A stretch of 64,000 bases of DNA from Astrocystis sublimbata. Taxonomy: Eukaryota > Ascomycota > Sordariomycetes > Xylariales > Xylariaceae. Location of the stretch: contig JAJNNY010000002.1 of the NCBI GenBank assembly GCA_022453515.1, forward strand, positions 434,001-498,000, given 5' to 3'. Shown here piece after piece: positions 13,085-36,024 of the stretch (positions are counted from its first letter, which is position 1; each line of letters opens with the position of its first letter). A program made the position numbers and the translations under genes. The notes under the pieces are model-generated. The model ran no database searches. It saw only the letters and a list, made by a program, of their open reading frames with translations, and was not told the origin of the DNA.

Positions 13085-13973
13085 ATTGGTGTAAGTGAGT
13101 TGCTAAAATAGAAAGAAAACCAAGTTCAACTACGATGCGATATGGGACCTCAGATTTATATTGGAAGTCCTACCCCGGTGCAAGTGCCAAATATGCCCGT
13201 CTTCGGGGACTGGTGATTCTATATGTCATCAAAGGGCGCAATTGCGATGCGGACTGAAGGTCTGCATGTCTCCACAATGTCGGTCTATCGCTGCGAAGGT
13301 TCGAGTGTGCATACAGACTTCCCAGTATATATGATTACATAATAATGGATTATCGCCGACTCAACATTCGGATTTTAGTCATAGTACCAGATCCCATATT
13401 AGACCACCTCATTGAATACATGGTCTTGAATATATGCTATTCAACCATAGTGTAATTGGAGAATCAATACGAAGAAAGCATAAATAACATGCTTTTCTAC
13501 AAGGGACTTGCTATAGATGGTTAGTTTCGCTGCTTAATGCTATTTCCATAAGTATAATTCTGCCGCAACAGATTGAAAAAAAGGTAGGCGAGCCCGCAAC
13601 CAAGAAAGCTAAACACCACCATGTCTTTAATCTAGTCCTTAAAAGATACTTGGACTTGCGGGAGGTCATTCAAGGCAACTTGATATCGCCCGACTATGTT
13701 ACCCCTCACGACCATGGATCCAGTCCATGACCAAAGAGCTAGCGACATATCGGACACCTAGAAATAGAAAAAGATGGGTCAATGGGTGCCTACCTAATAG
13801 TGCTCACGTCACTCTCTTTCTATTTCTATAACACAATCCGCGGCGGGTTTAAGTAACTCTAAGCAGGGAGGGAATCCTAACACATATATAACATACTATT
13901 AGCGAAGCTATATAGATAAACAGATGCATAAAAATGAAAATAATAGAGAACGAGAATAAAAAATAGAGTAACG
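13085..13973. other. AT-rich intergenic DNA next to the tRNA cluster
   Basis: No coding frame was recognised. A short inverted repeat (AGAAATAGAAA-type) pairs 13758-13773 with 13818-13831. The DNA becomes AT-rich towards the tRNA genes, and a run of A at 13958-13963 acts as the T-run terminator for the minus-strand tRNA-Pro. Confidence 0.5.
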
Positions 13974-14063
13974 GGTCTGGCCGGGGATTGAACCCGGGAC
14001 CTCGCGCAATTGATGGCTAAGGGTGTACCCTAAGCGCGAATCATACCACTAGACCACCAGACC
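13974..14063 (-). tRNA. tRNA-Pro(AGG) with a 19-nt intron
   Basis: The reverse strand folds as a cloverleaf: acceptor GGTCTGG/CCAGACC, D-arm GTCTAGTGGTATGA, anticodon loop TTAGGGT with AGG, and T-arm CCGGG-TTCAATC-CCCGG. A canonical anticodon-loop intron of about 19 nt (around 14009-14027) lies one base 3' of the anticodon. A T6 run follows about 10 nt downstream (13958-13963 read in reverse) and would end Pol III transcription. It is separated from the upstream tRNA-Ser by 38 nt. Confidence 0.93.
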
Positions 14064-14101: not shown

Positions 14102-14182
14102 CGACAACGACAGGACTCGAACCTGTGACCCCGAAGGGATATGATTTCTAGTCATACGCTTTAACCACTCAGCCACGTTGCC
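14102..14182 (-). tRNA. tRNA-Ser(AGA)
   Basis: A type II tRNA with a long variable arm (CCCTTCGGGG hairpin). The acceptor GGCAACG pairs with CGTTGTC (one G-T), discriminator G. The anticodon loop is CTAGAAA with AGA and no intron. The T-arm is ACAGG-TTCGAGT-CCTGT. The 38-nt spacer to tRNA-Pro has no run of four T, so the two may be transcribed together. Confidence 0.93.
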
Positions 14183-14414
14183 TGTTGCTCATAGGTAGAT
14201 GAGAATTTGGCTTAGTAAAAGGACCTAAGTCTAAGAAAACTCAAAAATATATTTAAAAAAAAACATCTTAGTATAATAAACTTTAAGGATAACTTCTATA
14301 GCATTAAGTAGGTATTAAGTATATGTTGTTCTTAAGTCCAACATGTTATTTTATAAGCAAAAAGCAAAAAAGAGAGGTTGTTGTTCCAAGTCAACTTGGA
14401 GGCATCAGGAATTG

Positions 14415-14548
14415 AGCCCGATGCGGGGGTCGAACCTATAGATAGATCGTCAGTCATAAGACCAAGCCATGAAAGAGCGGAAGTCTCTCTTCTTACCCGC
14501 AACCTTGAGATTAAGAGTCTCACGCTCTACCGATTGAGCTAACCGGGC
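14415..14548 (-). tRNA. tRNA-Lys(CTT) interrupted in the T-arm by a 61-nt GT-AG insertion
   Basis: The reverse strand gives acceptor GCCCGGT/ATCGGGC (one G-T), D-arm AGCTCAATCGGTAGAGC, anticodon stem TGAGA/TCTCA and loop CTCTTAA with CTT, with no intron at the usual place. After GTTGCGG the T-arm is broken by 61 nt (14436-14496). Removing them yields GCGG-GTTCGACC-CCCGC, an ordinary T-arm. The insert starts GTAAGA, has GACTGAC 13-20 nt before its end and stops at TAG, matching spliceosomal introns in neighbouring genes. The Pol III B box (GGTTCGACC) survives because the last G of the insert replaces the displaced G. A T6 terminator lies at 14366-14371. It could be a working gene with a non-canonical intron or a recently broken tRNA. 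Confidence 0.88.
14436..14496 (-). other. Spliceosomal-like insertion in tRNA-Lys
   Basis: This 61-nt insert lies between the fourth and fifth T-stem bases of tRNA-Lys(CTT). Its 5' end GTAAGA, internal CTGAC and 3' end TATAG match the splice signals of nearby protein genes; intron 2 of def1 is also 61 nt. Because G flanks both junctions the exact edges could shift by one base, but the GT-AG placement leaves a perfect tRNA. Confidence 0.8.
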
Positions 14549-35917: not shown

Positions 35918-36024
35918 TGCGCCAGGTGAGGATTGAACTCACGACCTTTGCATTTCTACCACACAGGTTACGCTGGGGCATAACAAGTATAAGAGCAATA
36001 TGCTAACCACTACATCACAAGCGC
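35918..36024 (-). tRNA. tRNA-Ile(TAT), intron-containing, slightly degenerate
   Basis: Reverse strand: acceptor GCGCTTG/CTGGCGC with one mismatch (T-T) and one G-T, D-arm ATGT-AGTGGTTA-GCAT, anticodon stem TTGCT/TGCAA with a closing T-T, loop CTTATA giving anticodon TAT, an intron of about 33 nt after position 37, and T-arm GTGAG-TTCAATC-CTCAC, discriminator A. T-rich sequence follows downstream. Fungal tRNA-Ile(TAT) genes normally carry an intron, which fits. The two mismatches leave some chance of a pseudogene. Confidence 0.7.

Follow-up and report, generated by a model that had tools for sequence, protein, structure and literature searches.

Candidate U2-type spliceosomal introns in the T-arm of nuclear tRNA-Lys(CTT) genes of the fungus Astrocystis sublimbata

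Introns of the mRNA type in fungal nuclear 18S rRNA genes were reportedly described by Rogers et al. in 1993, and rRNA genes are transcribed by Pol I. Among genes transcribed by Pol III, the U6 snRNA gene of fission yeast contains an intron in which Frendewey et al. in 1990 reportedly noted a match to the B box. This Schizosaccharomyces pombe intron is a GT-AG spliceosomal intron that is spliced from a Pol III gene product, according to two papers (PMC8917221, PMC10484740). The word 'intron' is absent from a study of Aspergillus niger U6 promoters (PMC5806293).

Insertions at unusual positions of tRNA genes have been explained differently. In the sections of a review that deal with them (Yoshihisa 2014, PMC4090602), the ectopic introns of archaea and Cyanidioschyzon are ascribed to the splicing endonuclease and bulge-helix-bulge (BHB) motifs, and the inserts of 3-24 nt in Guillardia nucleomorph tRNAs are given as removed by unknown means. 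Eukaryotic insertions in the D- or T-arm are there said to affect mostly one of many synonymous genes and to mark supposed pseudogenes, with nucleomorphs and Cyanidioschyzon as the exceptions. The string 'spliceosom' is absent from the text of this review and from the tRNAscan-SE 2.0 paper, which describes its search for non-canonical introns for archaea. Among the open-licence PMC papers listed in literature searches, judged by titles and abstract openings, none describes a nuclear tRNA gene with a spliceosomal intron.

Here we analysed a window of 64,000 nucleotides (positions 434,001 to 498,000 of contig JAJNNY010000002.1, assembly GCA_022453515.1), which contains an interrupted tRNA-Lys(CTT) gene at 14415-14548 on the minus strand. 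The Rfam tRNA model RF00005 matched this interval with 53.1 bits (cut-off 29) and passed over some 63 nt in the T-loop. Exon 1 (14497-14548, minus strand) extends from the 5′ strand of the acceptor stem to the 5′ strand of the T-stem and includes the anticodon CTT (14513-14515), while exon 2 (14415-14435, minus strand) provides the T-loop, the 3′ strands of the T-stem and acceptor stem, and the discriminator. The two are separated within the T-arm by a 61-nt GT-AG insert (14436-14496, minus strand), which by its sequence and by family comparison has the character of a spliceosomal intron. As an earlier note on this DNA had described, the insert begins with GTAAGA, contains CTGAC and finishes with TATAG; the CTGAC, a putative branch-site motif, lies at 14449-14453 on the same strand, and its presumed branch A precedes the end of the intron by 14 nt. 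In the GT-AG register the insert falls between tRNA positions 52 and 53, and the exon sequence GGGT permits four insertion registers. Owing to this ambiguity the initial GT is weak evidence by itself, and the weight falls on the RAG that follows, the branch site and the terminal YAG.

ARAGORN missed the gene in its default bacterial mode and called it Lys(ctt) when introns were allowed. Together with an ordinary tRNA-Ser(AGA) (14102-14182, minus strand; Rfam) and a tRNA-Pro(AGG) with an ordinary anticodon-loop intron (13973-14063, minus strand; ARAGORN with introns allowed), it forms a small tRNA cluster. Elsewhere in the window, at 35918-36024 on the minus strand, lies a tRNA that by eye is Ile(TAT) with an ordinary anticodon-loop intron and one mismatch each in the acceptor and anticodon stems; ARAGORN called it Gly(ccc).

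The 42.6-Mb host assembly (189 contigs), whose ITS resembles that of Xylariales, was searched for related genes by BLAST with the tRNA and with a 36-base exon 1 pattern, allowing up to three mismatches. The pattern was found at nine genomic places, eight of them exact and one with three mismatches, and BLAST agreed. Eight intact Lys(CTT) genes are present, of which five are interrupted at the identical site and three (C189, C102:1309997 and C1) are uninterrupted; exon 1 of the window gene is identical to that of the seven others. The insert measures 61 nt in the window gene (C102), 60 nt in the copies on C88 and C13, which have one and the same insert sequence, 55 nt in C24 and 67 nt in C117. 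With introns allowed, ARAGORN still missed the C24 and C117 copies. The regions C88:16519-19575 and C13:2739-5795 are 99.7% identical over 3 kb, and both lie near contig ends in matching orientation. They may represent an assembly overlap that was left unmerged, or else a duplication of very recent date; in the former case the distinct interrupted genes would number four of seven.

When the exons were joined, all four distinct interrupted copies matched the uninterrupted gene at 74 of 74 bases (the 73-nt tRNA plus one trailer base), the C13 letters being the same as those of C88. The expectation that removing the insert would restore an ordinary tRNA is thus borne out by three uninterrupted tRNA-Lys(CTT) genes of identical sequence in the same genome. 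No exon base is changed in any interrupted copy, so the decay of exons or stems that would mark a pseudogene is not seen. The earlier note had offered a freshly broken gene as an alternative; this finds no support, as the site recurs in five of eight genes and the exons are invariant. Chance or a local assembly error is unlikely, given that other Lys(CTT) genes carry three more GT-AG inserts, each of a different sequence, at this site. Beyond about 17 nt upstream, the flanks of the distinct interrupted loci showed no BLAST similarity to one another (E 1e-5). The three uninterrupted genes have about 125 nt of upstream sequence in common and so constitute a single group, in which the intron was never present or was lost, perhaps in one event.

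To what extent the inserts resemble introns was assessed by shuffling, with GT and AG held fixed and the interior shuffled by single bases (200,000 shuffles per insert). All four distinct inserts (55-67 nt) have a GTRAG 5′ splice site and a YTRAC motif, which we take to be the branch-site motif, with its A 12-14 nt from the end; YTRAC at 8-20 nt from the end arose in 6-8% of shuffles. The 3′ splice site is YAG in all four (TAG, TAG, TAG and CAG), which is weak alone, as it arose in 52-61% of shuffles. For each insert, shuffles that combined all three signals (with YTRAC at 8-20 nt) made up a fraction of 0.0006-0.0009. Multiplied, the four frequencies give 3.5e-13, a value that presumes independent inserts and is too extreme if they share ancestry. 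With six bases trimmed from each end, the inserts aligned with one another no better than shuffled sequences did (six pairs, z -0.4 to 1.4). The persistence of the signals in all four despite this shuffle-level similarity suggests that the exons and splice signals were kept while the remaining insert sequence turned over.

The mRNA introns read in the window yield no branch consensus for the host. Three homology-guided mRNA introns there, in SWI3-, ETF-alpha- and ARH1-like genes, showed an obvious CTGAC by eye only in the ARH1-like gene; these protein names come partly from Pfam. A de novo scan of the window for mRNA introns was dropped, having given 35 GT-AG sites compared to 31-53 for five control end pairs.

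The ninth place matched by the exon pattern (C107:246730-247230) is a decayed copy. It has three changes in 36 exon bases, GC instead of GT at the 5′ splice site and an insertion in the D-loop, and it has lost the branch region and most of exon 2. Among five copies compared, this relic aligns best with the C88 gene (local score 92, compared to 64, 64, 60 and 60 for the other four), and on this sequence basis it probably descended from an interrupted copy related to C88. That descent rests on the whole colinear alignment including the trailer, because the intron part alone, when aligned with the C88 intron, reached a score of 30, which exceeds the mean of 1000 shuffles (18.7, sd 2.9) but not the highest of them (36). 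Set against this relic, which has lost both exon sequence and its 5′ splice site, the intact interrupted copies show no pseudogene behaviour, and the difference suggests that their exons and splice signals were kept by selection.

The window gene has the sequence motifs expected for transcription by Pol III, namely A and B boxes and a terminator-like T-run. We take the A box to be TAGCTCAATCGG (14530-14541, minus strand) and the B box to be GGTTCGACCCC (14426-14436, minus strand), both assigned by the general consensus of these boxes. The first G of the B box is the last base of the intron, as the earlier note had also proposed. The insert extends the distance between the boxes to 93 nt instead of 32. 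A terminator-like T6 run lies 43 nt past the discriminator (14366-14371, minus strand), and a downstream run of five or six T is found in all eight Lys(CTT) copies.

The 3′ trailer preceding this run is structured, a property conserved in all eight Lys(CTT) genes. In a first hairpin (14402-14424, minus strand), the 3′ strand of the T-stem and acceptor, GCATCGGG, can pair with the trailer sequence CCTGATGC; all eight pairs of GCATCGGG with the trailer motif CCYGRTGC are possible in each of the eight copies. As this hairpin engages the 3′ strand of the tRNA itself, it would exclude or compete with the acceptor stem. A second hairpin is formed in the window copy by TCCAAGTTGACTTGGA (14385-14400, minus strand); among six distinct sequences, two of its six pairs vary on both sides and three are broken in one sequence each. 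The length of the trailer was compared across the 65 distinct genes called by ARAGORN. The first run of at least four T lies at 40-43 nt in the six Lys(CTT) entries; in the 59 other genes it lies at 24 nt or less in 50 and at 32 nt or more in seven, and two have none in the sequence covered. Being present in the uninterrupted copies as well, the trailer is not intron-specific. Speculatively, it could prevent the precursor from folding and thereby let splicing precede the processing of the ends. Three tRNA-Ala(AGC) genes (L079, L080 and L081) also have a hairpin-like trailer, GGAGG...CCTCC, with the first T4 at 32 nt. In the minimum-energy fold of the window precursor the cloverleaf stems are kept and the insert occupies an enlarged T-loop, with a stability at the level of shuffles (z -0.47); the corresponding folds of the other three distinct precursors lack the cloverleaf.

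Inserts of a similar kind were found in U6 snRNA genes of the same genome. A search with the Rfam U6 model, in which 47 of 2232 candidates were scored, gave four matches, three of them above the cut-off. Two genes scoring more than 60 bits (C1:11589-11744 and C130:152546-152701, both on the minus strand) contain a 57-nt GT-AG insert, GTAAG...TTACAG, directly after ACAGAGAAGAT. The two inserts are alike at 50 of 57 bases, have YTRAC 12 nt from the end, finish with CAG and enclose a B-box-like stretch, AGTTCGAACC or GGTTCGAACC, so that these genes combine such a stretch with a T-run and an insert. Judged from these sequences, the genome appears to splice Pol III transcripts anyway. A third U6-like gene (C135:326268-326365) is diverged, scores 56.6 bits and has no insert; the fourth match is below the cut-off. 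The fungal SRP RNA contains no insert (298 bases for 293 model positions).

Whether the T-arm site is used in other tRNAs was investigated by pattern scans, in which a splice motif was sought upstream of AG/GTTCRANNC (the slash marking the junction) and the reversed motif served as control. Hits numbered 26 for GTAAG (control 26), 21 for GTGAG (28), 4 for CTAAC (9) and 12 for CTGAC (10). As these totals are not above control, only the tRNA context discriminates. A full 5-bp T-stem was present in four of the 26 GTAAG hits, all of them Lys(CTT). Four of the 16 CTAAC and CTGAC hits were Lys(CTT), the remaining flanks being judged by eye, and one of the 21 GTGAG hits was Lys(CTT); for the other 20 the matched letters were covered.

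Candidate tRNA genes were also surveyed directly. Rfam scored 63 of 1291 first-look candidates, ARAGORN made 84 calls (65 distinct) on 93 loci plus the window, and 17 tRNAs combined into one query found 42 matches (40 of 93 candidates scored). No other split tRNA was found in this partial survey, which covers part of the isoacceptors and in which introns outside the anticodon loop, where ARAGORN looks, can escape. The two tRNA-Lys(TTT) genes seen (L077 and L078) have ordinary anticodon-loop introns, and the lysine isoacceptors thus differ in intron type. A scan of a prokaryote contig collection and of viral contigs gave no match.

The earlier note had raised reverse splicing of an mRNA intron into the gene. 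This is possible but unsupported, as no insert matched elsewhere in the genome: the four inserts, used as one joined query, gave only self-matches at E values up to 10, with a method that leaves out simple repeats and common words and has little power on short, diverged sequences. If reverse splicing occurred, it took place long ago or the donor has since diverged.

Several other accounts of the insert were weighed against this evidence. That the interrupted genes are broken and silent, with the three uninterrupted genes supplying all tRNA-Lys(CUU), is improbable. Those three copies exist and could in principle do so, yet the interrupted genes are the majority (five of eight or four of seven) and are all split at a single site; their exons match the uninterrupted gene letter for letter, their inserts have kept splice signals without residual similarity, and the C107 relic of this genome differs markedly from them. 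Gene conversion restricted to the exons could preserve exon identity without function, but it would tend to erase the introns. Distinctly improbable, too, is a transcript that is spliced by the spliceosome but made by Pol II, with the tRNA ends produced afterwards. Most substrates of the spliceosome are capped Pol II RNAs, and the wider spacing of the A and B boxes in the window gene (93 nt instead of 32) would suit this account. However, the boxes are contained in invariant exons and the intron end, the T-run of five or six is found in all eight copies, and U6 offers a parallel both in this genome, with its B-box-like stretch, T-run and insert, and in S. pombe, where it is a spliced Pol III transcript.

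We consider it very improbable that the tRNA splicing endonuclease excises the insert as an ectopic tRNA intron, in the manner of archaea, Cyanidioschyzon or nucleomorphs. When a BHB was sought, a full 4-bp central helix was lacking in three of the four inserts across four registers and two geometries, whereas the C117 insert allowed one in one of the two geometries tried. The insert is found at 52/53-53/54 instead of the canonical 37/38, and all four inserts have spliceosomal signals, which the endonuclease does not need. Such an origin has precedents in non-canonical introns that include those at 53/54 and other positions in archaea and those in the T-arm in nucleomorphs, with similar cases in a red alga (PMC4090602). 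Scarcely credible is the retention of the insert in a long RNA with another role, for example as a tRNA-like regulator or a Pol III decoy: the window RNA does keep its cloverleaf stems when folded, at a z of only -0.47 compared to shuffles, but the inserts share no sequence, the other three distinct folds lack the cloverleaf, and conservation is confined to the exons, the trailer and the splice signals.

Taken together, these results make it very likely that the insert in the window is a U2-type spliceosomal intron and that the nuclear tRNA-Lys(CTT) gene around it is functional and belongs to a family of similarly interrupted genes. The reading of the earlier note as a spliceosomal-type T-arm intron is strengthened by the shared site in five of eight genes, the invariant exons, the diverged inserts with their splice signals and the U6 parallel. 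Judged from the genomic sequence, it is likely that most copies of the Lys(CUU) gene are transcribed by Pol III and have a T-arm intron of the U2 type, and that a nuclear tRNA is matured by the spliceosome. From the same features we infer transcription by Pol III, removal by the spliceosome and a share of the spliced RNA in the tRNA-Lys(CUU) pool. In this model, transcription by Pol III would be directed by the A and B boxes within the gene, with the last intron base completing the B box, and the transcript would end at the T-run some 40-55 nt downstream. The spliceosome would recognise G/GUAAG, the CUGAC branch site and UAG and remove the intron, which would restore the T-stem and make a normal tRNA fold available to RNase P, RNase Z and modification enzymes. 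Most parsimoniously, a Lys(CTT) gene would have gained the intron once, long ago, and would then have been duplicated while its intron diverged, with the intron never present in the three uninterrupted copies or lost from them; repeated gain at one proto-splice site also fits the data.

A tRNA dependent on the spliceosome would break the taught division between tRNA and mRNA splicing. If the model is correct, two lysine isoacceptors depend on two different splicing machineries, and the supply of one major tRNA is tied to spliceosome capacity, as is that of U6. Short Pol III transcripts besides U6 could then be spliceosome substrates, and translation capacity would be linked to the state of the spliceosome. 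Identical tRNA exons with four unrelated introns, together with three intronless copies, form a natural assay. Since standard annotation can miss such genes, as ARAGORN did here, similar cases may have been overlooked in other fungi.

Like the canonical nuclear tRNA introns at 37/38, exemplified in this genome by the anticodon-loop introns of tRNA-Pro and tRNA-Lys(TTT), the Lys(CTT) inserts lie in a nuclear tRNA gene and would be removed before maturity. They differ in lying in the T-arm, in their length of 55-67 nt, in their splice signals and in the machinery predicted to remove them. With the ectopic introns of archaea, Cyanidioschyzon and nucleomorphs they share a non-canonical place, including the T-arm, and the need for removal, but they have U2-type signals and three of the four lack a BHB motif. 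Compared to the eukaryotic D- and T-arm insertions, the interrupted Lys(CTT) copies are the majority and contain splice signals. The fungal 18S rRNA introns are likewise mRNA-type introns in a structural RNA gene, although the host there is rRNA and not tRNA. The fission yeast U6 gene likewise has an mRNA-type intron in a Pol III gene, and the Astrocystis U6 genes carry such inserts. Here, by contrast, the intron interrupts the T-stem of a tRNA, a host RNA that stands outside the spliceosome; moreover, while the U6 intron carries the B box whole, the end of the Lys(CTT) intron completes it. A spliceosomal intron in a Pol III gene was thus already known, and it is the tRNA as host that is the new part.
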